A stretch of DNA of 45,426 nucleotides from Promethearchaeota archaeon (lineage in GTDB: Archaea; Asgardarchaeota; Lokiarchaeia; Sigyniarchaeales; SOKP01): contig JAHLWH010000232.1 in NCBI GenBank assembly GCA_019058015.1, positions 1-45,426 on the forward strand, written 5' to 3'. The stretch's first letter is position 1, and every line of letters begins with the position of its first letter. Below the pieces are notes generated by a model, which saw only the letters and a program-made list of their open reading frames with translations, did not search any database and was not told the DNA's origin. The position numbers and the translations under genes are program-made. Below, in pieces: positions 7,798 to 27,690 of this stretch.

Positions 7798-8976
7798 CTA
7801 AATTTCAACGTCATACTCTAATTGGTCGATAATTTCTATTAGATCTAAGATTTCAAACCCCATGTTAAATATTTCATTTGCATCACTTAAATTTGTTCTA
7901 CAAAATGGACATGTTGAAGATACAATTGATGCCCCAGTTTCTTTTGCTTCTTCTAATCTTTCCTGTGATATTTCAACAGACCAATCTGGGTATCCAATTT
8001 TAACACCTCCTCCAGCACCACAACACCATGCGTGATTCCGATTTCGCCTCATTTCTACAAAATTAATTCCAGGAATCTGTTTATATACATCTCTTGGGAT
8101 TTCATATATGCCAGAATGTCTGCCTAAATGACATGGATCGTGATAGGTCACAGTTTTATTGTAGTTTGATTTGAATTTTAATTTTCCTTTATCTAATAAT
8201 TCCTTAAGCAGTTCAGCAGTATGATATAGTTCAAAATCATAATTAACACCAAATTTTTCAAAATCATTCTTTAATGTTCGATAACACCCAGCACAGGAAG
8301 TAATTACCCTGAATGCACCCGCTTCTTTTATCTTTTCTATATTATAATTCATAAATTCTTTTGAAATCGAAATTTGACCCGTTCTTATCATGGGAGATGT
8401 ACAACAATGTTCATCGATTAGTGTAAAATCAATATTTGCCCTTTTGAGAAAGTTTAATGTTGCATCTCTTAAGGATTGTTGGCGATAATTTGAAGTGCAT
8501 CCAATATAATATACCCATTCTGCTTTATCGGGTAAATCATATTTTTTCTTTAGCTCTTCATTATCAGAATTTGGTTCATCATAAGGATTAAATTTTTTAA
8601 TAGCTCGCTCAATTAGTTTTTCTTGGTTTTGGGCTGGACCGATATGTTTAACTGCTAACTCTCTCAAGGCTTCTATCATATTAACAATATAATCTGCATG
8701 TGGTGCTTGACATGCATCCATGCAAGCTCCACAAGTAGGGCATGCAAAAATGGCATCCTTTAAATCATCGCTCCATTCTAAATCTCCATTTAATACTCCA
8801 CGTATAGTTCTTATCTTTCCAGATGCCCAAAACGATTCAAACAGGAATTTTTCACCAGAAGGACATGATGGTTCAAAAGTCTTATATCCATACTTACAAG
8901 TGCTACACTTGATACATCTTTCAAAAGCCATCTCTAAATATTCTTTTCCCATTAAACTATTATCTATTTCCACCAT
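7798..8976 (-). CDS. (Fe-S)-binding oxidoreductase, GlcF/HdrD type
   Basis: The N-terminus has two [4Fe-4S] ferredoxin motifs: C21xxC24xxC27 with C38, and CPTCGACMDAC (C79, C82, C85, C89). The C-terminal part carries two CCG-type domains: CCTSPMIRTG and CAGCYRTL, then HDPCHLGRHSG, WCCGAGGG and STCPFC. This is the architecture of glycolate oxidase GlcF and heterodisulfide reductase HdrD, which pass electrons between a flavoprotein and a quinone, thiol or other carrier. The gene begins immediately after the stop of the FAD oxidase gene (8977), so the two are surely co-translated and form one complex. No membrane segment is seen. Confidence 0.88.
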   Translation of the reverse strand: MVEIDNSLMGKEYLEMAFERCIKCSTCKYGYKTFEPSCPSGEKFLFESFWASGKIRTIRGVLNGDLEWSDDLKDAIFACPTCGACMDACQAPHADYIVNMIEALRELAVKHIGPAQNQEKLIERAIKKFNPYDEPNSDNEELKKKYDLPDKAEWVYYIGCTSNYRQQSLRDATLNFLKRANIDFTLIDEHCCTSPMIRTGQISISKEFMNYNIEKIKEAGAFRVITSCAGCYRTLKNDFEKFGVNYDFELYHTAELLKELLDKGKLKFKSNYNKTVTYHDPCHLGRHSGIYEIPRDVYKQIPGINFVEMRRNRNHAWCCGAGGGVKIGYPDWSVEISQERLEEAKETGASIVSSTCPFCRTNLSDANEIFNMGFEILDLIEIIDQLEYDVEI

Positions 8977-10452
8977 TTATGTATTCCACCTTCCAGGATT
9001 AAGAATTGCATTGGGGTCCATCATTTTTTTTACCTTCTCAAACAATTTTAGCCATCCAGGATTAATTTTTTTACGCATCTTTTCCGTCATCCAGGCAGGC
9101 GTTTTATAAGGGATACAACCCAATTCTAAACAAGTATCAATGATTTCTTCTAATAACTTATGAATTCTTTCCTCATCTTTAAATTTATCAAAGCGTATTA
9201 TTGGTCTAAATATGCAATAATGTGAATATTTCATACTTTTCATGTAAAGGTACAATGGAACATTATATTTTTTAAAAAGTTTATCTACTTTTTGTGATAA
9301 TTCTTCTATTTTATGAGAGGGAGCATAACTACCAAACCATGTTAAACCAGAATATTCAAATAAAGATAAAACCATTGATGGTAAATCAACTAAACTACGA
9401 AGTCTTAAGTTAAATAATTTTACAAATTCATCAAAATCTATTGAATATATTCTAATACCCTGTTGTTTAATTTTCTCAATTATGTTTAAATATATCTCCT
9501 TTTTTGCTTTATATTGATTCTCTGTATGAGCTGTTATTGTGGAAATCGACATCATTCTTGGCTCGCCCGGAAATGTTTTAGGTTCCGGAATTCCACAGCA
9601 CATTTTGACTATTTCAATGCTTCCAAGGGCAATATCATCAATAACCTCCGTCCTTCCAATTTCTCTACAAATTTCTCCTACATCCTTTAAGTTAAAAATT
9701 ATTAATGCTTCAAATTTTCGAATTGGTTTCTTTGGCCATAACTGAACTGCACATTTTGTTATTAATCCGGTCATCCCTTGCCAATTAACAAATAATCCCA
9801 TTAAATCGGGCATTGGATAACGACTCCACCAACTATCAGGGTCAGCTTCTTCCTTCCCATAAAAACATGAACCTATCCTTGCGATATCTCCATCAACTGT
9901 AATAACTTCTAAACCGTTAATAGAATCCCCCATTGATCCAATTTTACATGACATATTATTCATTCCGCTTAACATAGCATTTCCTACTACACCTGCATAG
10001 GGGGGTGCAAATGGATAATTATATCTAAGGTGGGGGAAGTTTTCATCTAAATGCTTTTTTAATTGTCCAAATGTCACTCCAGGTTCTAGTAAAGCATACA
10101 TCATATTTTCATTTATATGTAAAATTTTATTCATTTTTTTACCGAAATCTACGATAATTCCTCCCCGTTCCGGTATTGTGAGGCCTCCAACATTATTTCC
10201 AGAGATATAGGGAACGATAGGGATTACATTTTGATTACAATATTTAACTAATTCTACTAATTGTTCTTTATTTTCTGGGATTACAACAAAATCCGGCATA
10301 TTTGGAGCGCATTCGGTCATATCATAAGAATAAGGATATAAATCAACACTTTTACTTGATACATTCTCCTTTCCAAAAATTTCAACTAATTTTTGATAAA
10401 CTTCTTCTTTATTGACTTTTTCAAAAATATTTGTTTCTTTAGTGATTGTCAT
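8977..10452 (-). CDS. FAD-linked oxidase, GlcD/vanillyl-alcohol oxidase family
   Basis: Residues about 40-220 form the PCMH-type FAD-binding domain (PDFVVIPENKEQLVELV, PYISGNNVGGL, GGIIVDFGKKMNKIL, LEPGVTFGQLKKHL, GVVGNAMLSGMNNMS). The C-terminal cap ends with MDPNAILNPGRW, a signature of this family. The family oxidises 2-hydroxy acids, cresols or related substrates and hands electrons to an Fe-S partner, here the adjoining downstream gene. An SCP2-like gene lies 12 nt upstream. Substrate binding by the SCP2 protein suggests a hydrophobic or acyl-CoA-like substrate, but that is inference. The length of 491 residues is in the normal range. Confidence 0.87.
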   Translation of the reverse strand: MTITKETNIFEKVNKEEVYQKLVEIFGKENVSSKSVDLYPYSYDMTECAPNMPDFVVIPENKEQLVELVKYCNQNVIPIVPYISGNNVGGLTIPERGGIIVDFGKKMNKILHINENMMYALLEPGVTFGQLKKHLDENFPHLRYNYPFAPPYAGVVGNAMLSGMNNMSCKIGSMGDSINGLEVITVDGDIARIGSCFYGKEEADPDSWWSRYPMPDLMGLFVNWQGMTGLITKCAVQLWPKKPIRKFEALIIFNLKDVGEICREIGRTEVIDDIALGSIEIVKMCCGIPEPKTFPGEPRMMSISTITAHTENQYKAKKEIYLNIIEKIKQQGIRIYSIDFDEFVKLFNLRLRSLVDLPSMVLSLFEYSGLTWFGSYAPSHKIEELSQKVDKLFKKYNVPLYLYMKSMKYSHYCIFRPIIRFDKFKDEERIHKLLEEIIDTCLELGCIPYKTPAWMTEKMRKKINPGWLKLFEKVKKMMDPNAILNPGRWNT

Positions 10453-10464
10453 AAATTTTACCTC

Positions 10465-10887
10465 TTACCTGGTTTTCTTATTCAATTCAAAATAATTGGT
10501 ATTAGGTTCCGCTGCGACCATTTGCATAGAAACCATAAAAATATTGTAAAATTTAACCAAATTTGTACTATCGTTTCCTAATCCTTCCATCTCCATTAAA
10601 CCATTTTCCATACCAAAAATTGGATTTTCCCTACCGTAAGCGAAATCCAACATTGTTTGCAAGTTAAGCTTTACTTTCATATCAGCCTTATCGGATTTTC
10701 CCATCTCGAACTTTATCTCATTACCCTCAAAAATAACAGTTAATGGATAAAATGGTTCTATATGAATAACAACTTTCTTATTCCAGTTAGAGACAAGTTT
10801 AATGAATTCTTCTTCATTTTTTCTATAATTAAAAATGTTATACAAGGATATCGAAATTAAATCCTCGGGTTTTTGTATTGAAATCAT
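10465..10887 (-). CDS. SCP2 sterol-carrier-like protein
   Basis: A 140-residue protein with the SCP2 pattern: a strand pair (KKVVIHIEPFYPLTVIFEG), EIKFEMGKSDKADMKVKLNLQTMLDFAYG, then an apolar segment with NGLMEMEGLG and a final helix. SCP2 folds bind sterols, fatty acyl-CoAs or other lipids in a hydrophobic tunnel. It is the first gene of a tight minus-strand operon with the FAD oxidase and Fe-S reductase genes, so it probably presents or binds the substrate of that pair. It lacks a signal peptide. Family call is by pattern; no residue is diagnostic. Confidence 0.6.
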   Translation of the reverse strand: MISIQKPEDLISISLYNIFNYRKNEEEFIKLVSNWNKKVVIHIEPFYPLTVIFEGNEIKFEMGKSDKADMKVKLNLQTMLDFAYGRENPIFGMENGLMEMEGLGNDSTNLVKFYNIFMVSMQMVAAEPNTNYFELNKKTR

Positions 10888-10998: not shown

Positions 10999-11751
10999 TT
11001 GCAAGATCTAAGGAAAATAATTGAAGCTTTTGTGAATAATAATGAAAATTTTAAAATTTATGATGCTCCCCAAAATCTATTAGAATATTTGATAAGTGTG
11101 GGATTAGGTGTTAAACTGGACTCATTTAAAGAAATTATTTTGGAAGAGGAAACTCAGATTGAATTGGGTGGTATTAAAAACTATTCAACTTCCGTAATTT
11201 ATCCAATATCAGATAAAAACTGTATTCATGACGGTAATATTATTTTAATTGGCCCTGAGATACAGGAGATTCAAGAAAACAATATAGATTTTGGTCAAAT
11301 TATAATTATTGCAGGAGAAAATATATCAGAATCTCACTACACTGACTTCCAGAGATTGCAGTTTATTTCTGATAGTATTGAGGGGTTCATGATTCGCTCA
11401 ATTCCTCGAAGATTTTGGTGTAGAATAAGTAAAGATGCAATTAAGAAAGGTTTTTCATTTAATTTATTGGGAAATTCAATTATATATCTATTCAAAAAAC
11501 AATTTCCGGAGTTAATAGAAGCTGTAGAAATAATTTTTATAAGCGCTAATGAGCAAAATATCAAAAAATTTCAAGAAGTTATTTCAAAAATTAGAGAAAT
11601 ATATAAAAGAAATTGGGCTAAAAAAATTGAAGAATGGAAAGAACGTGTAGATTGTAATTATGATTGGATCTGTGATGTGTGTCCTTATAACGAAACATGT
11701 TATAATATTTCAGATATATATGTGCTAAGAAAAAATATTGAATTCGACTAA
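10999..11751 (+). CDS. CODH/ACS beta-subunit (CdhC)-like protein lacking the A-cluster domain
   Basis: The sequence follows the N-terminal domain of archaeal CdhC (domain 2 of bacterial ACS): QIELGGIKNYSTSVI, IILIGPEIQEI, FGQIIIIAGE, then EGFMIRSIPRRFWCRISKDA, LGNSIIYLFKKQFP and a helix IREIYKRNW. CdhC then continues with the A-cluster domain. Here it is replaced by a short tail with C219-x6-C225-x2-C228-x5-C234, a different spacing from the A-cluster cysteines. It therefore cannot be a normal acetyl-CoA synthase. A CooC-type ATPase follows 14 nt downstream, so a metal or cluster-handling role near CODH/ACS is likely. The start used is TTG at 10999; no nearby ATG fits. Confidence 0.72.
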   Translation: MQDLRKIIEAFVNNNENFKIYDAPQNLLEYLISVGLGVKLDSFKEIILEEETQIELGGIKNYSTSVIYPISDKNCIHDGNIILIGPEIQEIQENNIDFGQIIIIAGENISESHYTDFQRLQFISDSIEGFMIRSIPRRFWCRISKDAIKKGFSFNLLGNSIIYLFKKQFPELIEAVEIIFISANEQNIKKFQEVISKIREIYKRNWAKKIEEWKERVDCNYDWICDVCPYNETCYNISDIYVLRKNIEFD

Positions 11752-11765
11752 TTAAAAAAATTATT

Positions 11766-12548
11766 ATGAGCCAAAAAAAGCCTTATATTATAGCAGTTAT
11801 AGGAAAGGGTGGTTCAGGAAAATCAGTATTTTGCGCCATCTCAATAATGATAATTGCTAATATGAAAAGATTTAAATTATTTGCGGTTGATGCAGACCCA
11901 ACTCATTCTCATTTATCTGATCTTCTTGATGTGAAAATTGATAAAAGTTTAGAAGCAATCAGGAAGGAAATTATTAAAACTGCAGCACAAGGAAGGGAAT
12001 CTGGAAAAATAAAATTGGCAGAAGACATAGATTATTTAGTTTATAATGCAATCGTTGAAAATAAAGATTTCTCCTTATTAGCTGTAGGACTTCCCGAAGG
12101 TCCTGGATGTTTTTGTCCAGCAAATAGTTTACTGAAAAAAGTAATATCTTCAATATCTTTGGATTTTGATATAGTTCTAATTGATTGTGAAGCCGGTTTG
12201 GAGCAAATAAGTAGAGAAGTAATCAGCAATGTAGATACAATAATCATAATATCAGACATTTCAGTTAGGAGTATAGAAACAGCTAAAACCCTACTTCAAA
12301 ACTCTAAAAAATTTACAAAATATAAACATATCGGTATTGTCGTTAATAGAGTTCGAGGAGATATATCTTATCTAAGAAAAAAAATTAATGATATGAATAT
12401 ACCAATTTTTGGAGAAATCCCTGAAGATGATAATGTTATAAAATTAGATATTGAAGGTAAATCAATGAGAAATTTATCCTTTGATACATCAATATATAAA
12501 AGTATTGAAAAAATTATACAGAAAGTTTTAGATTTCATGTATCATTAA
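11766..12548 (+). CDS. cooC: CooC/AcsF-type nickel-insertion ATPase
   Basis: A MinD/SIMIBI-class P-loop ATPase with the deviant Walker A GKGGSGKS (13-20), switch segment FAVDADPTHSHL, a Walker B-like region IVLIDCEAG, and the base-binding VVNRVRGD. The CxC pair in GPGCFCPANSLL (C115, C117) is the signature of CooC, where the two cysteines at the dimer interface bind Ni/Zn. CooC matures the Ni-Fe-S cluster of carbon monoxide dehydrogenase; AcsF does so for acetyl-CoA synthase. It lies 14 nt after the CdhC-like gene. No complete CODH gene is in the window, so the client is elsewhere or is the CdhC-like protein. Confidence 0.85.
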   Translation: MSQKKPYIIAVIGKGGSGKSVFCAISIMIIANMKRFKLFAVDADPTHSHLSDLLDVKIDKSLEAIRKEIIKTAAQGRESGKIKLAEDIDYLVYNAIVENKDFSLLAVGLPEGPGCFCPANSLLKKVISSISLDFDIVLIDCEAGLEQISREVISNVDTIIIISDISVRSIETAKTLLQNSKKFTKYKHIGIVVNRVRGDISYLRKKINDMNIPIFGEIPEDDNVIKLDIEGKSMRNLSFDTSIYKSIEKIIQKVLDFMYH

Positions 12549-14137: not shown

Positions 14138-15121
14138 TCATTTTTTTAATGTGGTAATTGGGCGGCTTTGTAATATGTATATTTTATCATTTTCTATTGC
14201 CCATTCAATATCTTGAGGTAAATTGAATGCATTTTCAATTTTTAATCCTAAATTATGAAGTTGGCGAAGTTGTTTTTCGTTTATAGAGCAGACTGTCCTG
14301 GATTTGGAGTCTGTTTCTATCAAAATGGTATATGATCCTTTAGGATTTTTAATCGACTTTTTCTCTTTTTTACCGATAATCCTCTTTATAATTTCGAATT
14401 GATTTTTTTTAATTATAATAGTATCTGGGATTATTAAATCATCCGCAATAGTATTACCAAGCCCCCATGTGGAATTTATCAACATTTGGTTCGAATCATT
14501 ATTTATTACATTAGATGTAAAAAAAACTCCTGATATTTGTGAATTAACCATTTGTTGAACAATAACAGCCATATAAATATCAGACAATGAAATATTTAAT
14601 CCTTTTTTCCACATTTGAAGGAAGTAAAGCATTGATCGAGGTGAAAATAATGATAACCAGCAATTTTTTAAAGATGCTATAATATCATGAATATTAATGT
14701 TACATAAATAGGTATCAGCTTGTCCAGCAAAGGAGAATTTTTTGGAATCTTCGATTGTTGCTGAAGATCTAACTGCGAAAGAAATTTTACTCCCAATTTT
14801 TTTTTTAATTTTATCAAATGCTACTCTGATTTCATCGATTATTATTTTAGGAATTTTTGATTTCAGTATTAAATCTCTGATTTTTATTGAGTCTTGTAGA
14901 ATTTCTTTTAAATGAAAACGTTTTGATAATAATTTCATCAATTTATCGCTGTATTCAGATTCTTCAAGGAATTTTCTATAAGATTTTGTATTGATAATGA
15001 ATCCGGGAGGGACTATTACTCCTATTTCGATTAATTTGATTAAATTGGATCCTTTACCTCCCAATAAATCAGTATTAGGTGTTACTTCTGAAAAAAATAC
15101 AACGTATTCCGAAAGTTTCAT
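14138..15121 (-). CDS. Free-standing ATP-grasp domain of PEP synthase/dikinase type
   Basis: This is the nucleotide-binding part of PEP synthase, rifampin phosphotransferase and phenylphosphate synthase beta subunit, and nothing else. Motifs in order: LLGGKGSNL, VPPGFIINT, FAVRSSATIEDS, FSFAGQADTYL, MAVIVQQMV, SGVFFTSN, TWGLGNTIADDLIIPD and the closing IEWAIENDKIYILQSRPITT. It ends right after the QSRPIT motif, where full enzymes continue into the His domain and the pyruvate barrel; both are absent. In the family this domain binds ATP and transfers its beta-phosphate to a swivelling histidine. The two His-domain genes start 267 nt away on the opposite strand, so trans-acting phosphotransfer is the natural reading. 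Confidence 0.86.
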   Translation of the reverse strand: MKLSEYVVFFSEVTPNTDLLGGKGSNLIKLIEIGVIVPPGFIINTKSYRKFLEESEYSDKLMKLLSKRFHLKEILQDSIKIRDLILKSKIPKIIIDEIRVAFDKIKKKIGSKISFAVRSSATIEDSKKFSFAGQADTYLCNINIHDIIASLKNCWLSLFSPRSMLYFLQMWKKGLNISLSDIYMAVIVQQMVNSQISGVFFTSNVINNDSNQMLINSTWGLGNTIADDLIIPDTIIIKKNQFEIIKRIIGKKEKKSIKNPKGSYTILIETDSKSRTVCSINEKQLRQLHNLGLKIENAFNLPQDIEWAIENDKIYILQSRPITTLKK

Positions 15122-15388
15122 AGATATTCTTTGAAATTGTAATTAATAAAATATATTTAATTAAATATTAAAAATTTTTATCATTTTAAAATAACTCCTT
15201 TATTATTTTTATTTAATTTAATAAAAATAGCAAATACTACTTTCCTAATTTGTTAATTTTTTAATTTTTAAGATATCATAAAGCATATTTTTATTTGAAT
15301 CTTTTAAAAAATAAAGTTTTATTAAAGATTAAGAAAAATAATAAAATAATATTCATTCAAAATAATATTTTCAATATAGTTGATTTAG

Positions 15389-15745
15389 ATGAAAAAAATT
15401 GGGGAGGGATTATCTTGTTCATCCAATTCAGAAGTTACAGGAGAATTGGTGTATATTCAATCCGTTCAGGACGTTATAAATTTATTTGATGATGCCAATG
15501 GGAAAATATGCATAGTTGAGGATTCTGGTACTACTACTCTTGGTCCAATTTTATCAGAATTAGCCGGTGTATTGTGTCCAATAGGTTCTGTAGGCTCACA
15601 TCTTGCAATAGTTTCAAGAGAATTCGAAATACCTTGCATAATGAGTGTAGAATTTTTATTAGAAGATTTATCATCACTGAATAGAAAAAAGGGAAAAATT
15701 ATTACAGAAAGTGAAGCTAAGGGAATTATCTATTTACTTGAGTGA
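15389..15745 (+). CDS. Free-standing PEP-utilising-enzyme mobile (phosphohistidine) domain, copy A
   Basis: A 118-residue protein made only of the swivelling His domain of dikinases. It has TGELVYIQSVQDV (family: G-x-a-x-V), ICIVEDSGTT, ELAGVLCPIGSVGSHLAIVSRE and FEIPCIMS. The His in SHLAIVSRE (H71) aligns with the phosphorylated histidine of PEP synthase and rifampin phosphotransferase (TGG-x-x-S-H-x-A-I-x-A-R-E). The common TGG before it is replaced by CPIGSVG. It probably carries a phosphoryl group between the ATP-grasp protein (14138-15121) and an acceptor bound elsewhere. The start is set by the paralogue: both copies share TTGATTTARATG immediately before this codon. Confidence 0.85.
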   Translation: MKKIGEGLSCSSNSEVTGELVYIQSVQDVINLFDDANGKICIVEDSGTTTLGPILSELAGVLCPIGSVGSHLAIVSREFEIPCIMSVEFLLEDLSSLNRKKGKIITESEAKGIIYLLE

Positions 15746-15835
15746 TTTTTAATTTAAATCTAAAAATATTATTTTTAGAAAATGAGTTAATGTAGTTAAG
15801 ATCAAAAAATAAGAAGATTATAATGAGTGATTTAT

Positions 15836-17200
15836 ATGTTAGGTGATATTAGCGATGATGAAGCCAATGAACTAATCGCATTGTTTTCTAATAGTGTTAT
15901 AGAAAATTTTCTTAATCGAGGGATGGTAGAAAGTAAAGTATTTCCTGTAACGCATTACATTCACGTCGCCTGTTATATTTTATATGATCAATCTTATCAA
16001 TATAATATTTTAAAAAAAGTTGCAAGTAAGATATCTCCAGAGGACATCGCCAGAAGATCTAAATCCTTAGGCTCACGATTAAACCAGTTGTCTTTTTATT
16101 CTATATGCATGTTGTATTTACACGGTCGGGCTCAAGTTATTCATGATAATCTCACTAAAAAAAAGGTTGGCGAAACTAATATCGTTGTTGCGCCTGAAAC
16201 GAAGAAAAAAGAAACAAAATTCATTCTTGACTTTTGGAAAAGATTGAGTCCCAATTATCTCAATGATGGGCAGCTAACGGTGAAAAATAAAAAAATTAGA
16301 TGCCTTTCCGATGATTATATTAAAAAATTAAAAGATGATATGATCCCTATCAATAATAAAGAGATAACTAAGCGATTAAAACAAACAATCGCCCATTTGA
16401 CCATCTATAGTTTCCTTTCTCAAGCCGAGTGCCGATTGAGCATTTCTGAACAGGGACCATATTATTTTGAAGGCAACACTGAACCTTTAATATTCAAGGA
16501 ATTCCTGGATCTGCCTACTGGTGATGAAATATTTGGAATAGATATGTCTGGAAATATGCCATATAAAATCACCAAGATCGCACCAATTCCAAATGTAATA
16601 TTTGGAATGACGCTGAAAGATATGAAAAAAATCGAATTTAACGATTGGAGCACATTATTTGCCGATCCAGCTGAGTTTTCTTCAAACATAACATCAATAG
16701 GGATTTGGACAAGAGAATTAATGCATGAAAAAGATCTTAGGTATCCTGAAAATTTAGGTGATTTAAAACCCCTATCGCTTGATATCTTAGAGGAACTGTC
16801 TGAATTTGCAAAAAATGCCACGAAGGAATTATATATTGACATATCGAAATGGAGTTTTACTAAAAAATTGCTCTTCGGTACAAACCTTTATGCTAATTTA
16901 GTATCGGCTTTATGTACCCGTTATGCAGGATTAGAAGATGATTTTAACTGGACTTGGGCTTTTGATATTGCCGCAAATAAACCACTTAAGACTGACTCAA
17001 TAGATGAAAAAAGAATAAAGTTTTACATTGAAAAATTAGGCAAAAAAATAAAGACCAACCTAGATGAAAAAGAAGTAAAGAAATTGCATATTACAGCTTT
17101 AGAAAAATACCAAGGTGTACATCCTTTCCTTACACGAATATTTAGGCGTAGAAAACTCCAACAAATAGACCCGTTATATTATTATTTACAAGATGAATAG
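15836..17200 (+). CDS. Uncharacterised ~454-residue partner protein, copy A
   Basis: I do not recognise the family. The protein is soluble, with no signal peptide or membrane segments. The N-terminal ~130 residues look helical (DEANELIALFSNSVIENFL, HVACYILYDQSYQYNILKKV, RLNQLSFYSICMLYLHGRAQVIH). A charged linker follows, then FILDFWKRLSPNYLND, a beta-rich middle (SISEQGPYYFEGNTEPLIF, IFGMTLKDMKKIEFNDWSTL) and a Trp/Tyr-rich C-terminal part (FNWTWAFDIA). It always follows a His-domain gene, so it may be the acceptor-binding subunit of a split phosphotransferase. The start is ATG 15836, matching MLGDIS of copy B and preceded by GAGTGA; an in-frame GTG at 15827 is less likely. Confidence 0.8.
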   Translation: MLGDISDDEANELIALFSNSVIENFLNRGMVESKVFPVTHYIHVACYILYDQSYQYNILKKVASKISPEDIARRSKSLGSRLNQLSFYSICMLYLHGRAQVIHDNLTKKKVGETNIVVAPETKKKETKFILDFWKRLSPNYLNDGQLTVKNKKIRCLSDDYIKKLKDDMIPINNKEITKRLKQTIAHLTIYSFLSQAECRLSISEQGPYYFEGNTEPLIFKEFLDLPTGDEIFGIDMSGNMPYKITKIAPIPNVIFGMTLKDMKKIEFNDWSTLFADPAEFSSNITSIGIWTRELMHEKDLRYPENLGDLKPLSLDILEELSEFAKNATKELYIDISKWSFTKKLLFGTNLYANLVSALCTRYAGLEDDFNWTWAFDIAANKPLKTDSIDEKRIKFYIEKLGKKIKTNLDEKEVKKLHITALEKYQGVHPFLTRIFRRRKLQQIDPLYYYLQDE

Positions 17201-17288
17201 TCAATTGTAGATTTAATAAAAAAAGTAAAATATATTCATAAAATAATAAATTGATATTACTTTTAAATAATATTTTTAGTTGATTTAA

Positions 17289-17645
17289 ATGAAAAAAATT
17301 GAGGAAGGCGCTTCTTGTTCGTCCAATTCAGAAGTTTTAGGAGAATTTGTGTATATCCAATCCGTTGAAGACGTAATAAATTTATTTGATGATGCTAACG
17401 GGAAAATATGTATCGTAGATGATTCGGGTACTAATACTCTTGGTCCAATTTTATCAGATTTAGCAGGAGTATTGTGTCCACTCGGTTCTGCGGGCTCACA
17501 TCTAGCTATAGTTTCAAGAGAATTCGAAATACCTTGTATAATGAGTGTAAACTTTTTAATAGACGATTTGTCATCACTAAATAAGAAAAAGGGAAAAAAA
17601 GTTACGGAAAGTGAAGCCAAGGGTATTATTTATTTACTTGAGTAA
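17289..17645 (+). CDS. Free-standing PEP-utilising-enzyme mobile (phosphohistidine) domain, copy B
   Basis: Paralogue of the gene at 15389, also 118 residues, with the same active segment CPLGSAGSHLAIVSRE and H71 conserved. Differences cluster in exposed positions near both ends, for example EEGAS for GEGLS. The residues around the catalytic histidine and the FDDANGKICIV core are unchanged, which suggests that both copies are functional. The next gene starts 50 nt downstream. Confidence 0.85.
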   Translation: MKKIEEGASCSSNSEVLGEFVYIQSVEDVINLFDDANGKICIVDDSGTNTLGPILSDLAGVLCPLGSAGSHLAIVSREFEIPCIMSVNFLIDDLSSLNKKKGKKVTESEAKGIIYLLE

Positions 17646-17695
17646 TTAACAAAATTATTTTCAATTTAAATCTAAAATTATAAGGAGTTGTTTAT

Positions 17696-19063
17696 ATGCT
17701 AGGTGATATTAGCGACGAAGAAGCAAATGAACTAATCGCGTTGATTTCTAAGAGCGTTGTAGAAAATATTCTAAAGCGAGGAATGGTTGAAAGTAAAATA
17801 TTTTCAGTATCGCATTACCTTGCCGTTGCTTGTTATGTTTTATACGATCAATCTTATCAATATAATATCTTAAAAGAAGTTGCAAGTAAGATATCGCCTG
17901 AGGACATCGCCAGAAGATCGAAATCCTTAGGTCCAGGATTAAACCAATTGGCTTTTTATTCTACATGTATGTTGTATTTGCATGGTCGAGCTCAAGTTAT
18001 TCATGATAACCTCAGTAAAAAAAAAGCTGGCGAAACTAATATCGTTGTTGAGCCCGAAACGAAGAAAAAAGAAACAAAATTCATTCTTGACTTTTGGAAA
18101 AGATTGAGTCCCAATTATCTCAATGATGAGACATATATATTGAAAAATAAAAAAATTACGTGCCTTTCCGACGATTATATTGAAAAATTAAAAGATAATA
18201 TGATCCCTATAAATAATAATAAAGAGATAACCAAGCGTTTAAAGCAAACCATCGCCCATTTAACCATCTATAGTTTCCTTTCCCGAGCCGAGTGTAGAAT
18301 GAGCATATCTGAGCATGGACCATATTATTTTGAAGACAACACTGAACCTTTAATATTCAAAGAATTCCTAGAACTACATACTGGGGATGTAATGTTTGAA
18401 ATAGATATGACTGGAAATATGCCATATAAAATCACCAAGATTGCGCCGTTTTCAAATGTGATATTTGGAATGACGCTGAAAGATATGAACAAAATCGAGT
18501 TTAATGATTGGAGCACTTTATTTGCCGATCCAACCGATTTTTCTTCAAACATAACATCAATAGGGATTTGGACAAGAGAATTATCGCACCCAAAAGATCT
18601 TAGATATCCTGATAATATAGGTAAATTAAAACCCCTCTCGCTTAATATCTTAGAGGAACTGTCGAAATTTGCAAAAAGTGCCACGAAAGAATTATATATT
18701 GATATATCGAAATGGAACTTTACTAAAAAATTGCTTTTTGGGAGTCACGTTTATGTTAATAGCCTCTTAAGTGTGTGTGCCCAATACGCAGGTATAGAAG
18801 ATAACTTTAACTGGACTTGGCCTTTTGACTATGCCTCGGGTAAACCACTTAAAACTGACTTAATAGACAAAGAAAAAATAAAGTTCTATATTGATAAATT
18901 AGGGAAAAAAATAAAGACTAGCCAAGATGAAAAAGAAGCAGAAAAATTGCAAATTACAGCTTTAGAAAAATACGAAGGAGTACATCCATTTATGACGCGA
19001 ATCTTTAGGAGTAGAAGAGCCCAAAAATTAGACCCATTTTATTATAAATTACAAGATGAATAG
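17696..19063 (+). CDS. Uncharacterised 455-residue partner protein, copy B
   Basis: Paralogue of the gene at 15836, co-linear over its whole length. It has a good Shine-Dalgarno site (AAGGAG, 8 nt before the ATG). Conserved blocks are AHLTIYSFLS, ECRxSIS, GPYYFE, NTEPLIFKEFL, FNDWSTLFADP, NITSIGIWTREL, ELYIDISKW and EDxFNWTW. Variable blocks are the C-terminal third around the LLFG motif and the SALCTRYAG/SVCAQYAG segment, and the 16270s/18130s loop. If this is the acceptor-binding partner, the variable blocks are where the two copies may have diverged in substrate. No family assignment. Confidence 0.8.
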   Translation: MLGDISDEEANELIALISKSVVENILKRGMVESKIFSVSHYLAVACYVLYDQSYQYNILKEVASKISPEDIARRSKSLGPGLNQLAFYSTCMLYLHGRAQVIHDNLSKKKAGETNIVVEPETKKKETKFILDFWKRLSPNYLNDETYILKNKKITCLSDDYIEKLKDNMIPINNNKEITKRLKQTIAHLTIYSFLSRAECRMSISEHGPYYFEDNTEPLIFKEFLELHTGDVMFEIDMTGNMPYKITKIAPFSNVIFGMTLKDMNKIEFNDWSTLFADPTDFSSNITSIGIWTRELSHPKDLRYPDNIGKLKPLSLNILEELSKFAKSATKELYIDISKWNFTKKLLFGSHVYVNSLLSVCAQYAGIEDNFNWTWPFDYASGKPLKTDLIDKEKIKFYIDKLGKKIKTSQDEKEAEKLQITALEKYEGVHPFMTRIFRSRRAQKLDPFYYKLQDE

Positions 19064-19126: not shown

Positions 19127-20113
19127 TTAATCCCGCGTTGTGGATAAATACTCCGAAATACCATCACCTTCTTTACCATCACAAGTGAATACCGCTACTT
19201 GCTCGTAAATTTCAGTTAATCCTTTCTCGGATGGAAGAGGTAAATATTGCGAAAATATTGTTTTTGATTCTATGGTTCTTTTCTTTCCATTTTCATCCGT
19301 TAAGATAAATGTTGATGAAACAGGTGTTTTTTCGTTTTCTTTCGTTTTTGTGGTCACTTCTATGTTTTCTATTCTAATATTATCAGCGCCTTTAGAATAA
19401 ATTATTCCATCTTGTTTTACTTCACCAAGGGCTTCAGCTTTATAAAAATTAATTGTCTCATCTTCAAACTGGGCAGAAACCCAATTCCATGCATCAATTC
19501 CAGCCCAATCCCTAATACCCCAGCTGTGATCACGATGACCGAAACCCTTAATGTTTCTTGTTTCAGTTATCTCCCCATTTTTCTTCAGATCCAAAGTACC
19601 TGTAGCTATCATAGGTTGCTCATAATGCATCTGAGCAAATACTTGATCTGTCTTAATTTGATCCTTCTTAAGAAAAGCTAAGGGATCTTCACCCTCAGCT
19701 GAATTAAATATTGGAAACCTTCCCTCAAAGTTAATATTTAAATTAACTCTACTATTTTTGAATTTAATTCTCCATTGTTTCATTGGTTTGATGCAATAAT
19801 ACTTAATTTTCGCATCGAATTCCCAATTATCAGGCATTTTTTCAAGGGGAATTTCCTTAAAATAAGTTTTCGTCTTACCATCAATTACTAATAATAATAA
19901 GATCAGAGATTTCTTTTTACCCATTTCGAACGCTAGTCTAGTAATAAAAAAAACCTTATTTGGGCGATCAATAAAATTAAAGTACCAACTCTCGTTATGG
20001 AATGGAGGGAATTTTCCCCAATCATGCATATATTCATCCTTTTCGGATATATCAAAACCTTTATTAATTTGTTTCTTGAGTTTTTTCTCTTTTGTCATAA
20101 TATTTCCATTCAA
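19127..20113 (-). CDS. DUF7064-like (CrtC/AttH lipocalin-fold) protein
   Basis: A beta-rich 328-residue protein with WYFNFID in its N-terminal half and the motif GFGHRDHSWGIRDW at 190-203, followed by WNWVSAQFED. This G-x-x-x-RDHSWG-x-R motif marks the DUF7064/7065 family, relatives of hydroxyneurosporene synthase and AttH with two lipocalin-like barrels. The family sits near lipid, polyketide and terpenoid genes and probably handles a hydrophobic ligand. The start is the TTG at 20113, preceded by AGGAG with a 7-nt spacer; the first in-frame ATG (20098) is too far from that site. It is convergent with the copy B gene at 17696-19063. Confidence 0.7.
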   Translation of the reverse strand: MNGNIMTKEKKLKKQINKGFDISEKDEYMHDWGKFPPFHNESWYFNFIDRPNKVFFITRLAFEMGKKKSLILLLLVIDGKTKTYFKEIPLEKMPDNWEFDAKIKYYCIKPMKQWRIKFKNSRVNLNINFEGRFPIFNSAEGEDPLAFLKKDQIKTDQVFAQMHYEQPMIATGTLDLKKNGEITETRNIKGFGHRDHSWGIRDWAGIDAWNWVSAQFEDETINFYKAEALGEVKQDGIIYSKGADNIRIENIEVTTKTKENEKTPVSSTFILTDENGKKRTIESKTIFSQYLPLPSEKGLTEIYEQVAVFTCDGKEGDGISEYLSTTRD

Positions 20114-20336: not shown

Positions 20337-21623
20337 CTATAATAAAGTATTGGCAAACATCTTAATCTTATTTTTAATCATTTTTATAGATGTCATTCTC
20401 TGATCCCCAACATCAAGTTCTATAATAAGCATCGGGATTCCAACTTCATCTTTTAAGGCTTCTCTTAAAATTTGTGGAACCGAACCAAACTGCTTACAAC
20501 CTATATGAGAAGTATAAATAAAACAATCTGCACTAAAATCTTTTGCAAATTTTACACAATCATCGATAAAAGGATCAAAAAATTGAGTTGATTGTTTCAT
20601 CATTGGAAAATCCATTGTTCTTTTTGCCATTCCCTTAAATAGCGTATCTAAGCCTGATTTAGTATTTATCGGTTCCGTTAAATTATAATTAAAGATATCA
20701 AATAGAATTGACATACCAATTTCTCTCTCTAACCATTCACATATAGCAAAATCAAAAAAGATTAGCATGTAAGGCCAAATGCTTCTTATTTTTTCTTCTC
20801 CACCTGAATGTTCCCCGCGCTTATATCTTTTTTTTATGATTTCCAACATCTCAGTGTAAAAGGCAATATTTTCAGGTTTTCCAGCCATAAGAATGGTTGC
20901 TCCAGCAGAAAATGCATTAAAGAGGTTTTCTACGGGGCAGGGAATTGCTTTTTTTAATTCGAATATTTCCAATTGAATTTTTTGAACCTGATTTTCTATT
21001 TCTATATTTTTTTTCATTCTATTAAAATCAGGTTCCTGGTCAATAACCTTTCCTAATTCATATAATGTAAGTTTAAGTTGCTTACCATAATATTCATAAC
21101 TTTTTTCTTCGTGAAGAAAAGGGATATCAGAAAGAATTAATGGGATATTTTTATACTTAAAAAATGGGTAAGAAGCAACAGAATTATCGCATGGGCCTGT
21201 TGGACAAATAATAGCGTCAAATTTAAATAAATCATCTAGTGTCATAGCCATTACTCCTTTTTGACTACTACATGTATGATATGGATGTCCCCAATTGTTA
21301 ATTATATCATAATATTTTTCAGCACCTTCAGGTAAAAGTGCTGCAAGAAGATATGAAACTGCTTCTATACAAACAGGTACACAATCAAAGCAATAAAGAT
21401 ATTCCGATGGAAAAGCAAAATTATATCCAACTATTGGTAATCCTTCTCTAGCCTTTTCAATAGCTTCTGATAATACAGATTCAAAACATTTTGTACCTAT
21501 TTTAATTGAGGGTATTTCTTGTTCTGGTAATATTCTCTCAGTTAATTCACATGTAGTTGCAATAGTTTCTAATAACATTTTATAAGGGATTACTCGATCT
21601 TCCATTTTAGTCCTATCAATCAT
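20337..21623 (-). CDS. 2-hydroxyacyl-CoA dehydratase / benzoyl-CoA reductase-type subunit (HgdB/BcrB-like)
   Basis: A 428-residue member of the HgdB/BcrB/BcrC family, which holds a [4Fe-4S] cluster and performs radical dehydration of 2-hydroxyacyl-CoA or reduction of aromatic acyl-CoA. Seen: LPIVGYNFAFPSEYLYCFDCVPV, HPYHTCSSQKG (C118), PTGPCDN (C145) and SHIGCKQFGS near residue 385. The three Cys positions fit cluster ligands or active-site residues. It is 14 nt downstream of a close paralogue (21638-22900), so the two should form the usual heterodimer. No activator ATPase (HgdC/BcrA/D) is in the window. M1 has a GAGGT site 8 nt upstream, though homology to the paralogue starts at M7. Confidence 0.83.
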   Translation of the reverse strand: MIDRTKMEDRVIPYKMLLETIATTCELTERILPEQEIPSIKIGTKCFESVLSEAIEKAREGLPIVGYNFAFPSEYLYCFDCVPVCIEAVSYLLAALLPEGAEKYYDIINNWGHPYHTCSSQKGVMAMTLDDLFKFDAIICPTGPCDNSVASYPFFKYKNIPLILSDIPFLHEEKSYEYYGKQLKLTLYELGKVIDQEPDFNRMKKNIEIENQVQKIQLEIFELKKAIPCPVENLFNAFSAGATILMAGKPENIAFYTEMLEIIKKRYKRGEHSGGEEKIRSIWPYMLIFFDFAICEWLEREIGMSILFDIFNYNLTEPINTKSGLDTLFKGMAKRTMDFPMMKQSTQFFDPFIDDCVKFAKDFSADCFIYTSHIGCKQFGSVPQILREALKDEVGIPMLIIELDVGDQRMTSIKMIKNKIKMFANTLL

Positions 21624-21637
21624 TTCTTTAACCTCTT

Positions 21638-22900
21638 TTATAATAATGTGTTTGTAAACATTCTAATCTTATCCTTCACAGTTTTAATAGAGGCAAAGCG
21701 CTTGTCACCTACATCTATATCTATAATTAATAGAGGGATACCTAATTCATCTCTTAAGGCTTCCCTAGGAAGTTGAGGAATAGACCCGAACTGCTTACAA
21801 CCTATGTGAGAAGTAAATATTCCGCAATCAGCTTTAAATTCTTTTGTAATATTTATAAATTCTGGAATGAAATCATCATAAAAATCAATAGATTGCTTAA
21901 TCATTGGAAAATTCATTGATTTTCGTGCCATATCATTAAACATTTTATCTTCCGAACTTGTATCTACAGGGTCATATAAATTGTAAGAAAAAATATCTAA
22001 TAAAACTGACATCTTAATTTCTCTATCCAACCATTCACATAAAGCTAAATCAAAGAATATGGTCATATAAGGCCAGATTGAACGAATCTGTTCTTCTATA
22101 GGACTTTCTTTTTTTTTATATCTTTTTTTTGCTAGAGCTAGCATATTTTCATAAAAATCTAATTTCTCTGGACGTCCTGCCATAAATACTGCAGCAGCAG
22201 CAGACATTGGGTTTATCATGCTCTCAAGTGGACAAGGAGTAGCTTTTTTTAATTCAAATAATTCAAATTCTAGTTTTAATGATTGATTTTCAATTTCTAA
22301 AGATTTCTTTATTTTATCGAAGTCTGGTTCTTGACCAATTATTTTGCCAATTTCACTTAATCCTATTTTGATTTGCTCAGCATAAAATTCATAACTTTTC
22401 TCTTCACGGATAAAGGGCATGTCTGTGATAACCAAAGGAATATCTTTATATTTAAAGAAAGGGTATGAAGCATATGTATTATCGCAGGGAGCAGTTGGAG
22501 TGGTTATTACATCAAATTTAAATAAATCATCCAATACCATGCCCATTACTCCCTTCTGGGAAGAGCATGTATGATAGGGGTGTCCCCAGTGAGTAATTAA
22601 GTCATAATATTTTTCTGAACCGTTAGGAAGTAATGCCGCCAATAAATATGATGTTCCTTCAATACAAATAGGAACACAGTCAAAACAATGTAAAAATTCT
22701 GCTGGACATGCAAAATGATAACCGATTATTGGCAATCCTTCTTCTGCTTTTTGAATATAGTCAATTAAACATTTTTCTAAATTTTTTAATCCCATTTTTA
22801 AAACTTGCATTTCATGTTCTGGAACAATTCTCCATACCAACTCATAGGAATTTGAAACAACTTCTAACAACATTTTATAAGGGATAATTTTTTCTTTCAT
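21638..22900 (-). CDS. 2-hydroxyacyl-CoA dehydratase / benzoyl-CoA reductase-type subunit, paralogue
   Basis: A 420-residue paralogue and operon partner of the gene at 20337. Shared blocks are IPYKMLLE, CFDCVPxCIE, SYLLAALLP, HPYHTCSSQKGVM, LDDLFKFD, SYPFFKYKDIPL, SHIGCKQFGS and LIIxDxDVGD. Cysteines C112 and C139 and the one in SHIGCKQFG are conserved. Two similar-sized subunits agree with HgdAB or BcrBC organisation. The pair could act on a hydroxyacyl-CoA in amino-acid fermentation, or on an aromatic or cyclic acyl-CoA. The sequence alone does not decide. First gene of the operon. Confidence 0.83.
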   Translation of the reverse strand: MKEKIIPYKMLLEVVSNSYELVWRIVPEHEMQVLKMGLKNLEKCLIDYIQKAEEGLPIIGYHFACPAEFLHCFDCVPICIEGTSYLLAALLPNGSEKYYDLITHWGHPYHTCSSQKGVMGMVLDDLFKFDVITTPTAPCDNTYASYPFFKYKDIPLVITDMPFIREEKSYEFYAEQIKIGLSEIGKIIGQEPDFDKIKKSLEIENQSLKLEFELFELKKATPCPLESMINPMSAAAAVFMAGRPEKLDFYENMLALAKKRYKKKESPIEEQIRSIWPYMTIFFDLALCEWLDREIKMSVLLDIFSYNLYDPVDTSSEDKMFNDMARKSMNFPMIKQSIDFYDDFIPEFINITKEFKADCGIFTSHIGCKQFGSIPQLPREALRDELGIPLLIIDIDVGDKRFASIKTVKDKIRMFTNTLL

Positions 22901-23185: not shown

Positions 23186-25561
23186 TTATCCCATTTTTGC
23201 TTCAACAATATGTTTTTTGCCGTCTTTAAAGACTGGAACGAGATTACTTTCTGGTATTATTTTATCTACTCTTATCTCTTTTATTCCTTTGGACACATGA
23301 TTTGGATTTTGAACCTGTATATCATAAACTGCATTCCTAAAGTGTCGAGTAAATCTGAATTTATCCCATTTTTTTGGAATACATGGGTCAACTATTAAAC
23401 CATGAAAATCTGGTCGTATTCCAAGAATCCATTCTGTTGCAACTTTCATTGACCATGATGCTGTTCCGGTAAGCCATGAGTTTTTCGCAGCTCCAAATTT
23501 TGGATGATCATCCCCTGTTATCATTTGAGAATAGATATAGGGTTCAGTTTGATGTATTTCTGCAATTTTATTTTTATTAGTTGGAGCAATTTTCTTATAG
23601 TATTCGTAGGCAATATCTCCTCGTCCTAGAATGCATTCAGCCATTTCCGCCCAAGGATTAGTGTGGCAAAAAATAGAAGCGTTTTCTTTAAGACCAGGGG
23701 GAAAAGTACTTATTCCTTTTAATTCTGGATAGAATCGTGTATATGGAGGGTGGAATAATTTAATACCATATTTAGTAATGAGATATTTCCTAATAGAATT
23801 CATACACTGAAGTCCTCTATCTACTGGAGCAACTTTACTATAAACAGCCCAAGACTGCGTGTTTAGGAAAATTTTCCCTTCGTTATTTTTTTCACTTCCT
23901 ATAATTTCTCCATTATCAGTAAAAGCACGAATATACCATTGACCATCCCATGCGTGTTTGTTAATATGTTCATTTATTCTCTTAGCTAAATTAGTATAAT
24001 TAGTAGCATCTTTGTTATGATTATACTCCTTCGCAAGTTCTTCTAAGTCTAAAAGTGCTTTGTGGAATTGCATAGCAACCCAAACACTTTCACCACTCTT
24101 ATTTGGACCATGTAGTTGAAGAGAATCATTCCAATCGGCAGTACCTATGAGAGGGAATCCATGTGGTCCCATGTGATTGTTTGTAAATTCTATCGCTCTC
24201 TTAAGATGATCATATAAAGGCGCCTTAGAGCCTTCAACGAACTCTACTTCTTCTCTTAAAATTGACATATCTCCAGTTTCTTTTATATAATTGCTAACAG
24301 CTATTATAAGCCATAGATGATCATCACTAAAGAATTTCATAAGAGGATTAACGTAGTCAGGATAATTTCCTTCACCAGATAGAGGGAAATATACATGGTA
24401 TACTTTCCCATTTTCAAACTGATTCTTAGTAAGATCTAATAACCTTTGACGAACCATCTTTGGAAGTGCATGACAAATTGCGAGAGTATCTTGGCTACTA
24501 TCACGAAATCCTATCCCTCTACCTATACCTGTTTCATAAAATGAAGCATATCGAGCCCAATCAAAGGTTGTTTTACACTGATATGGATTCCAAATGTTTA
24601 TAATGGAATTAAAGTCTTCATCAGGTGTTTCTACAATAATTTTTTCGAGATAGCTTTTCCATGCCTCTTTTAGTTTTAAAAGTTCAATTTCAATATTGCT
24701 ATTATTCTTGTATTTATGAATTATTGGTTTTACCTCAGATTTTTTTTTAACAATGCCTAATATGAATAAAATATTCTCAGTTCCATTAGGATTTAATATT
24801 AAAGTATTACAAGTAGCAGCAATTGGATTTCCACCTAATGCTTGAGAATTTCTGCACTTTCCATTTTCAACACTCAATGGATTTGCCTCGGAATGATATT
24901 GACCAATAAAAGATTCTCGATCGCAATCATGACTTGTTACATTACCATTCGATGAAAAAAATGCAATACCTAAAGATGAATCGAAAAGATGATAAATTAT
25001 CATATTTTCTTCTTTATCGTATTTTGCAACTGCAACATTTTGAATATATTGGAGATCTCTTTGATCTCCTACTGCGTTCCATAGACAAAATTCAGCATAG
25101 GAAAAAATATTCAATTCTTTTTCTTCCGAGGAATTATTTTCTAGAGTTAATGACCAAACCTCTAAATTATCTTCTAACGGTACAAAATAGAGAATTTCAG
25201 CATGAATATCTTGATAAGAAGAGCTTATTTTAGTATAACCTAATCCATGTCGACATTCATAATTATCAAGTTTCTTCATTACAGGTTGCCATGTGGGAGA
25301 CCAATATTCTGAAGTCTGATTGTCTCTAATATAAATATACCTTCCTGGTCTATCTATGGGTAGATTATTGTATCTATATCGAAGTATTCTTTGGTCTCGT
25401 GGATCTATGTAAAAACTATATCCTCCTCCAGTATTAGAGACCATAGCACAATATTTACTATTATTCAAGTAATTAATCCAAGGCGTAGGTGTATCTGGTC
25501 TTATAATTACATATTCTTTACTTTCTGCAGAAAAATATCCGAATTTTATATCTTTCACCAA
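23186..25561 (-). CDS. GH94 glycoside phosphorylase
   Basis: A 791-residue GH94 enzyme, which uses phosphate to split a beta-glucoside or beta-glucosaminide and yields a sugar 1-phosphate. N-terminal beta domain: FGYFSAESKEYVI, TPWINYL, NTGGGYSFY, RPGRYIYIRD, WSPTWQPV, CRHGLGYT. Catalytic (alpha6/alpha6) domain: GIGRGIGFRDSSQD, SDDHLWLI, GTADWNDSLQL (catalytic acid among D476/D479), NPWAEMAECILGRGD, NSWLTGTASW, LGIRPDFHGL. It lacks the NCFS...ESFQTT insertion of cellobiose phosphorylase and has HGPNKSGESVWVA instead, so its acceptor may be a different disaccharide, such as chitobiose or an aldonic acid. No signal peptide: it acts on imported sugar. Confidence 0.9.
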   Translation of the reverse strand: MVKDIKFGYFSAESKEYVIIRPDTPTPWINYLNNSKYCAMVSNTGGGYSFYIDPRDQRILRYRYNNLPIDRPGRYIYIRDNQTSEYWSPTWQPVMKKLDNYECRHGLGYTKISSSYQDIHAEILYFVPLEDNLEVWSLTLENNSSEEKELNIFSYAEFCLWNAVGDQRDLQYIQNVAVAKYDKEENMIIYHLFDSSLGIAFFSSNGNVTSHDCDRESFIGQYHSEANPLSVENGKCRNSQALGGNPIAATCNTLILNPNGTENILFILGIVKKKSEVKPIIHKYKNNSNIEIELLKLKEAWKSYLEKIIVETPDEDFNSIINIWNPYQCKTTFDWARYASFYETGIGRGIGFRDSSQDTLAICHALPKMVRQRLLDLTKNQFENGKVYHVYFPLSGEGNYPDYVNPLMKFFSDDHLWLIIAVSNYIKETGDMSILREEVEFVEGSKAPLYDHLKRAIEFTNNHMGPHGFPLIGTADWNDSLQLHGPNKSGESVWVAMQFHKALLDLEELAKEYNHNKDATNYTNLAKRINEHINKHAWDGQWYIRAFTDNGEIIGSEKNNEGKIFLNTQSWAVYSKVAPVDRGLQCMNSIRKYLITKYGIKLFHPPYTRFYPELKGISTFPPGLKENASIFCHTNPWAEMAECILGRGDIAYEYYKKIAPTNKNKIAEIHQTEPYIYSQMITGDDHPKFGAAKNSWLTGTASWSMKVATEWILGIRPDFHGLIVDPCIPKKWDKFRFTRHFRNAVYDIQVQNPNHVSKGIKEIRVDKIIPESNLVPVFKDGKKHIVEAKMG

Positions 25562-25652
25562 CTTATGTATATATTTAATATTAAAATATATAGAATATAT
25601 TAAATAAATGATTTCAGTAGATTTTAAATTACGAGAGAAAAAAAAAATTAAT

Positions 25653-25755
25653 TTAACTTAATTCCCACCGTCGATAAAGACTTGGTACACTTTCCAGTAA
25701 ATTTTTAGTGTATGGATGAGTTGGATGGAGGAAAACATCTTTCTTTAATTGCATT
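25653..25755 (-). pseudogene. Relict of an oppF C-terminus
   Basis: The minus-strand reading KDVFLHPTHPYTKNLL...SVPSLYRRWELS-stop closely matches the last ~33 residues of the intact OppF encoded at 30362-31162 (KDVFLNPTNPYTKNLL...SVPSLYRQWDLS), including the stop. No start or ATPase domain remains. It lies 92 nt upstream of the GH94 gene, on the same strand. Confidence 0.85.
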
Positions 25756-25808
25756 CAATTTCGCAAGTATATAATCTTTTTAACCATTAAAAGCTATCAT
25801 AATTACTT

Positions 25809-27098: not shown

Positions 27099-27109
27099 GG
27101 AGAGAATAA

Positions 27110-27153
27110 CTCACTTTTATCGGTGGGCATAATATATTATAGATAAAAATGAG
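27110..27153 (+). terminator. Hairpin after the MFS gene
   Basis: CTCACTTTTATC (27110-27121) and GATAAAAATGAG (27142-27153) form a 12-bp stem with one mismatch and a 20-nt loop, starting 12 nt after the MFS stop; T-rich DNA follows. It may stop or stabilise the transcript, though archaeal termination usually relies on T runs alone. Confidence 0.35.
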
Positions 27154-27254
27154 AAATTAAGGTTATAATTTTTGTTTTTATTAAAAATAATTATCTTGAT
27201 AATGTATCAGTATGATGCCCCAATTCTAGATTTATAATTTTTAGGATACAATAA

Positions 27255-27690
27255 TTATCCCATTAACACTTCAATATCATGTTTTTTGCCATCTTTAAAT
27301 ACTGGTAAGAGATTATTTTCTTGTTTTATATTATCTACTTTAACTTCTTTTATTCTTTTAGATAGATGTTCTGGATTTTGAACTTGAATATCATAAATTG
27401 CATTCCTGAAGTATCGAATGGCTCTGAATTTATCCCATTTTTTTGGAATACATGGGTCTATCTTTAAACCATGAAAATCTGATCGTATTCCAAGAATCCA
27501 ATCTGTCGCAGCTTTCATTGTCCATGATGCTGTTCCTGTAAGCCATGAATTTTTCGCAGCTCCGAATTTTGGATGATCCTTACCTGTAATCATTTGAGAA
27601 TAGATGTAGGGTTCAGTTTGATCTATTTCTGCAATTTTATTTTTACTAGTTGGTGCAATTTTTGTGAAATATTCAAATGCTTTAAAAACA
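27255..27690 (-). pseudogene. Truncated GH94 relict (C-terminal ~140 codons)
   Basis: The minus-strand frame from about 27690 to the stop at 27255 reads IAPTSKNKIAEIDQTEPYIY through MITGKDHPKFGAAKNSWLTG to the end. It matches the last ~140 residues of the GH94 enzyme at 23186 with only scattered changes (GDDHPK/GKDHPK, ASWSMKVATE/ASWTMKAATD). Upstream of about 27690 the similarity ends and a stop appears. The catalytic aspartate region is missing, so it is inactive. The reading frame is still open, so the decay is recent or the piece arose by duplication of the gene end. Confidence 0.9.

Follow-up and report, generated by a model that had tools for sequence, protein, structure and literature searches.

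We propose that a gene module in a 45,426-nt stretch of a Lokiarchaeia genome (the window, meaning the whole stretch of DNA that was analysed) encodes a four-protein system for the ATP-dependent dehydration of an alcohol, and we put the probability of this reading as a whole at roughly 0.6. The module comprises a stand-alone ATP-grasp protein, a free swivel (phosphohistidine) domain protein, hereafter His, a protein hereafter called X, and a DUF7065+DUF7064 protein homologous to 25-phosphosteroid lyase (25-PSL). A first-pass annotation of positions 14138-19063 had named five open reading frames, all of which are present where it placed them, and had read them as a dikinase whose ATP-grasp, swivel His and third, most likely acceptor-binding, partner are separate proteins; this is supported by the co-occurrence and the fusion of His and X described below, and we consider it very probable that X is the acceptor subunit of a split dikinase. 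As an account of the complete module the annotation stopped one gene short, since it missed the gene at 19127-20113, and it is this 25-PSL homologue that points to phosphorylation followed by elimination. The features are:

14138-15121, minus strand: stand-alone ATP-grasp (PPDK_N) subunit of 327 residues (PF01326, 2e-83), the proposed ATP-to-His kinase subunit
15122-15388, no strand: AT-rich intergenic region between the divergent ATP-grasp gene and the His-X genes, from reading of the sequence
15389-15745, plus strand: stand-alone swivel (phosphohistidine) domain 1, 118 residues (PF00391, 2.3e-9), H71 codon at 15599-15601
15827-17200, plus strand: X1, proposed acceptor-binding subunit, 457 residues as listed, without a Pfam or NCBIfam family
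17289-17645, plus strand: stand-alone swivel domain 2, 118 residues (PF00391, 8.8e-9), H71 codon at 17499-17501
17696-19063, plus strand: X2, second copy of the proposed acceptor subunit, 455 residues, 80% identical to X1
19127-20113, minus strand: DUF7065+DUF7064 protein of 328 residues, 25-PSL homologue (Pfam DUF7064 3.9e-15, DUF7065 1.9e-6), proposed phosphate-eliminating lyase

In the proposed mechanism, the ATP-grasp subunit would phosphorylate H71 of the free swivel domain, as phosphoenolpyruvate (PEP) synthase and rifampin phosphotransferase (RPH) do; phospho-H71 would then dock on X and pass its phosphoryl group to the hydroxyl of an acceptor held by X, which would replace the PEP/pyruvate barrel or the rifampin-binding domain; and the DUF7064/7065 protein would eliminate phosphate from the phosphorylated acceptor to form a C=C bond. 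The net outcome, which we favour on balance, would be an ATP-dependent dehydration.

A proposed dikinase in three parts

The ATP-grasp protein consists of a single domain by Pfam, with PPDK_N over residues 18-326 of 327 and the C-terminus QSRPITTLKK, so the earlier observation that the domain ends at QSRPIT is correct. Its PDB relatives are PEP synthase (8a8e, 5.5e-61) and the ATP-grasp part of RPH (5hv6, 7e-50), and across 38 stand-alone homologues the nucleotide-site residues K23, R118 and E306 show little or no variation. Both 118-residue proteins are PEP-utilizers mobile domains with the SHLAIVSRE site that had been read in them; they are 86% identical to each other, and H71 is present in both and kept in all 56 His homologues. 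The His and X genes are duplicated in tandem as a unit, suggesting that the two proteins work jointly. X1 probably starts at ATG 15836 instead of GTG 15827 because the former aligns with the start of X2, whose ATG is preceded by an AAGGAG-like ribosome site. No PEP/pyruvate barrel is found among the Pfam-scanned genes of the stretch, which agrees with the absence reported at first pass. The conservation of the ATP-grasp protein, H71 and the X arginines across homologues places the module far beyond chance. The genome also encodes three full-length ATP-grasp+swivel proteins elsewhere (contigs C21, C77 and C184), so the split proteins are not its sole dikinase.

X is a candidate acceptor module of a new kind

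X1 and X2 have no significant Pfam or NCBIfam match, in keeping with their earlier description as unassigned; a RepA_C match of X1 (E 0.039) is weak and was taken as chance. Of the 147 Asgard genomes sampled, 52 from several classes carry the family, which has two forms, a long one of ~410-457 residues and a short one of ~385-400. Eight positions are invariant in 57 X sequences (R31, G100, R101, R203, G210, P211, Y212 and P281), and the three arginines are candidates for phosphate or phospho-His handling, to judge by sequence.

An AlphaFold model of X1 built from 46 sequences is confident, with a mean predicted local distance difference test score (pLDDT) of 89.5 and a predicted template modelling score of 0.90. 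It comprises a bundle of helices at the N-terminus, some seven strands, a pair of long helices and, at the C-terminus, a weaker extension. Searched with Foldseek against the PDB, RPH structures included, the model has no match at E<=0.001 (best E 1.8, probability 0.03), although the search ran without an isolated RPH acceptor domain as positive control. Sequence comparison with the PDB, single or by profile, gives chance matches only, and viral structures give none. In hhalign, X yields no alignment with full-length RPH-like proteins of the same phylum (probability ~1% or less), while the control comparison of Asgard X with bacterial X gives 100% (E 1e-57). The first-pass annotation had likened the partner plus a His domain to the ~70 kDa subunit of phenylphosphate synthase: the size agrees, but X shows neither profile nor fold similarity to the rifampin-binding acceptor domain (the HpeH/PpsA homologue). 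We reject X as an RPH/HpeH-type acceptor domain on the fold search and the profile comparison together, and as a PEP barrel because it has no Pfam barrel domain and its model no barrel-fold match. Going by its model, X is a distinct acceptor candidate, perhaps with a new fold; similarity too distant for these methods is possible.

The fourth protein is a homologue of 25-phosphosteroid lyase

By profile and fold the 19127-20113 product is a member of the 25-PSL family. A profile of 31 DUF7064/7065 family members has 25-PSL (9fzn, 8.6e-21) as its sole match in the PDB, mainly over the N-terminal half; the single sequence reaches only E 0.45. The model of the protein (pLDDT 89.6) retrieves 9g4c, 9fzn and 9g2i as best Foldseek matches, with E about 1e-13 (1.1e-13 for the first), probability 1.00 and template modelling scores of 0.61-0.69. 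The Asp of a GxRDxSWG motif, D195 (codon at about 19529-19531), does not vary among 68 homologues, and structure 9g4c, with product and phosphate in it, has Asn at this position; both would suit a catalytic residue. The protein is also matched by the NCBIfam Rv3169 family (1.3e-16). On these predictions, phosphate elimination is its proposed activity.

A characterized precedent comes from Sterolibacterium denitrificans, in which 25-hydroxysteroid kinase (25-HSK) phosphorylates the tertiary C25 alcohol and 25-PSL then eliminates phosphate to give an alkene (PMC8449060, PMC11061730). The proposed dehydration would likewise run through a kinase and then a homologous lyase. The kinases differ: 25-HSK is a single 43 kDa phosphotransferase with a reported ternary complex, whereas the Asgard kinase would be a three-part phosphohistidine dikinase, and no APH-fold domain is found among the Pfam-scanned window proteins.

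Members of the DUF7064 family stand beside two further kinase types. A second Asgard paralogue lies directly beside a full-length RPH-like (PRK06241-type) dikinase of ~910 residues at five loci (L132, L133, L135, L138 and L139); in the window genome, the matching dikinase is on contig C77 (L141:390-3122, minus strand), which stops shortly after it, and C53 holds a lyase fragment that matches. This dikinase and paralogue make a candidate for a further kinase-lyase pair. DUF7064 relatives encoded on plasmids of Rhodococcus and Mycobacterium have genes that overlap or lie next to those of APH-type phosphotransferases (Pfam APH, 1e-26 to 5e-28). Rv3168 of Mycobacterium tuberculosis, an APH-type kinase, is of another type than the kinase of the module. 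Its gene forms an operon with that of Rv3169 (PMC5340868), the protein whose family matches the DUF7064 protein. Since one lyase family accompanies three unrelated or differently built kinases, it most simply acts on a phosphorylated product.

Another second step would leave the kinase as proposed: the DUF7064 protein might produce or rearrange the alcohol as a hydratase, cyclase or isomerase, with phosphorylation serving for trapping or detoxification. The next Foldseek matches of its model, fungal pericyclases and kievitone hydratase (E 1e-9 to 1e-11), are what one would expect in that case. We hold it improbable, because 25-PSL is the best fold match and the sole significant sequence-profile match, and because a family found with three types of kinase is more likely to have a phosphorylated substrate.

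The module in Asgard archaea

A stand-alone His protein is present in 49 of the 147 Asgard genomes. X accompanies it in every one, and none of the 95 genomes without X has it (Fisher p ~7e-36). The co-occurrence of the trio in other genomes, put forward at first pass as a check, is thus borne out for His and X (49 of 49). Among 70 Asgard X loci, 65 have a DUF7064/7065 gene no more than 350 bp from X, 49 a His gene within 5 kb and 39 an ATP-grasp gene within 5 kb; all four genes are together in 38. These loci are related by descent, so the counts are not independent. Because of its linkage to X in 65 of the 70 loci, the DUF7064/7065 gene at 19127-20113 belongs to the module.

Linkage to X survives changes in gene order and crosses phyla. 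Order and strand vary: at most loci X and DUF7064 form one operon, with His and ATP-grasp divergent, whereas in the genus of the window DUF7064 is convergent with X; here and in the sister genomes, the ATP-grasp gene diverges from His-X. In another Lokiarchaeia genus (L045:447-1229 and sister loci), acetoacetate-decarboxylase-family proteins, in up to two copies, adjoin the ATP-grasp gene.

Bacterial X systems

The earlier reading called the three-part split archaeal; it is present in Asgard archaea but not peculiar to archaea, as several bacteria carry it. X homologues with 19-26% identity (from a multiple alignment) occur in Bacillus sp. MRMR6, Rhodococcus, Methylibium petroleiphilum PM1 and Paraburkholderia, where X adjoins a separate His protein and usually a PPDK-type protein too. 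Among 250 relatives of the Bacillus carrier, X is found in the carrier itself and no other, so it is rare there. The His domain is fused in front of X in one protein in R. oxybenzonivorans and R. pyridinivorans (L082:7454-9088 and L079:4182-5915), and the same His-X order lies within a longer protein on pROB02 of R. opacus B4 (L143); this fusion ties the two together. Around the L143 protein are two kinase genes (APH-like and ecdysteroid-22-kinase-like), a tyrosine phosphatase and a weak DUF7064 homologue.

The fusion bears on the idea that X is a scaffold or regulator and that the stand-alone His protein, like members of a phosphotransferase-system relay, hands its phosphate on to some other acceptor protein. 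In favour of this, X has no assigned fold, and the genes for His and ATP-grasp are sometimes located away from it in the genome. X, though, is where an acceptor domain would be expected and has a fitting size; certain Rhodococcus proteins join it to His, the two are duplicated as a unit, and genomes hold several diverged copies of X to one His protein, the pattern expected of alternative substrate subunits. We therefore regard a scaffold role as highly improbable.

DUF7064/7065 genes accompany X in bacteria as well, in Methylibium (L080 and L084), Rhodococcus 008 (L081), Paraburkholderia (L083) and R. oxybenzonivorans (L082 and L150). One region of plasmid pRB98 of the latter (L150, 398000-440000) holds genes for His, X, a dikinase, a lyase homologue, phosphatases, a methylcrotonyl-type carboxylase and a bacterial microcompartment. 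Some Rhodococcus X and the Bacillus X sit instead with parts of biotin-dependent carboxylases, resembling the Hpe pathway, and for this reason X probably serves more than one acceptor class.

Comparison with known dikinases and the case for a phenolic acceptor

The published two-component dikinases HpeHI, CreHI and PpsAB consist of an ATP-grasp subunit and a second subunit joining an RPH-like acceptor domain to a C-terminal swivel (PMC12167813), and HpeHI phosphorylates hydroxyphenylethanones before carboxylation (PMC9618137). Like the module, they have the ATP-grasp on its own subunit, the swivel His on another polypeptide, a third acceptor part and no PEP barrel. In HpeH, however, the RPH-like acceptor and the C-terminal swivel share one chain, whereas X has no detectable likeness to that acceptor, the swivel is a separate gene and the fused order is His-X. 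RPH and the PRK06241-type dikinases also combine an RPH/PEP synthase-type ATP-grasp with a phosphohistidine swivel, and the same Asgard genomes encode a full-length member that stands beside a DUF7064 paralogue, but they are single chains with an acceptor domain unrelated to X by profile and fold search. PEP synthase and PPDK share the ATP-grasp and the swivel; their PEP/pyruvate barrel is not in the module.

These systems suggest an alternative in which the trio, as an analogue of phenylphosphate synthase or HpeHI, would phosphorylate either a phenol or an enolised ketone, destined for ring reduction or carboxylation, with the DUF7064 protein carrying out other aryl- or enol-phosphate chemistry. 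The known split dikinases act on phenols (PMC9618137, PMC12167813); some bacterial X have surroundings like those of the Hpe pathway, with a biotin carboxylase, a carboxyltransferase, a thiolase and an annotated tyrosine phosphatase, and others occur with BCCP and a PYC-like carboxyltransferase; and HGD-D proteins, of the superfamily of benzoyl-CoA reductase subunits, are near the module in the window and at L136, from another Asgard class. Yet X has no detectable homology to the RPH/HpeH/PpsA acceptor domain, no carboxylase is found among the scanned window genes, the HGD-D pair adjoining the module scores weakly to all characterised members, and what stays constant in archaea is a partner homologous to phosphosteroid lyase, with relatives paired to other kinases. 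We consider a phenol or ketone acceptor unlikely and retain dehydration as the preferred reading.

Several observations nonetheless weigh against dehydration. In the aligned model the Asgard lyase shares only ~15% identity with 25-PSL, whose fold is also that of hydratases and pericyclases, so the DUF7064 protein may catalyse another reaction. Genomes G012 and G016 carry X with no His protein detected. At five Asgard X loci no lyase gene is close by; three of the five are on short contigs or close to where a contig ends. Some bacterial X (L058 and the third X of L079 and L082) stand with a biotin carboxylase system without a directly adjacent lyase, and thus X need not always feed one. With regard to the substrate, the HGD-D proteins and GlcD/GlcF-like oxidoreductases near the module in the window and at L136 speak against a tertiary or isoprenoid-like alcohol in that they would also fit a CoA-ester or aromatic pathway.

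Substrate and implications

The substrate is the weakest step of our explanation. Tentatively, it may be a hydrophobic, tertiary or isoprenoid-like alcohol; the pointers are the lyase itself, the APH-kinase relatives beside P450s, Methylibium PM1, and a Rhodococcus cluster with methylcrotonyl-type carboxylase genes. Methylibium PM1 grows on methyl tert-butyl ether, tert-butanol and tert-butyl ethers, and on its plasmid X, His and the lyase are close to methylmalonyl-CoA mutase-family genes. The conserved flanks of the short X form (an Fe-S protein, a histone-deacetylase-like protein, a TrmB regulator, an acyl-CoA synthetase and a geranylgeranyl-reductase-like protein) do not settle the substrate.

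A literature search, with subscription papers mostly outside it, found no description of a three-part dikinase of this kind and no assignment of DUF7064; the kinase chemistry is of a known kind, and neither the split nor the X family has a precedent in the sources searched. It is conceivable, though we would not wager on it, that X has a new fold and represents a third acceptor-module class of phosphohistidine dikinases, forming with the lyase an undescribed dehydration pathway for tertiary or isoprenoid-like alcohols that is widespread in Asgard archaea and scattered in bacteria. If the proposal is right, small-molecule dikinases gain a new acceptor module, an unannotated family in about a third of the sampled Asgard genomes gains a function, and the DUF7064/DUF7065 families are assigned as partners of several unrelated kinases. 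To our knowledge there are few examples of ATP-driven dehydration of unactivated alcohols, and a swappable kinase with a common lyase would provide a general route for the anaerobic use of branched or hydrophobic alcohols. The pairing of X with the lyase gives the module a testable function, for which four soluble proteins suffice as a direct test.

Genes around the module

Genes for a GlcD-like FAD oxidase, a CCG Fe-S protein and HGD-D proteins (2-hydroxyacyl-CoA dehydratase/benzoyl-CoA reductase superfamily) are near the module at window positions 7798-10887, 20337-22900 and 42754-44387. GlcD-like, CCG Fe-S and HGD-D genes are likewise near the module in an Asgard archaeon of another family (L136:9898-16001), and may belong to a downstream pathway. 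At 10999-12548 a short CdhC-like protein (acetyl-CoA synthase beta domain) adjoins a CooC-like P-loop ATPase, an arrangement kept in sister genomes. Positions 23186-41941 hold two GH94 phosphorylases, a GH130 phosphorylase, a GH2 enzyme and a peptide/sugar ABC transporter, which make up a neighbouring cluster for beta-glycan use.

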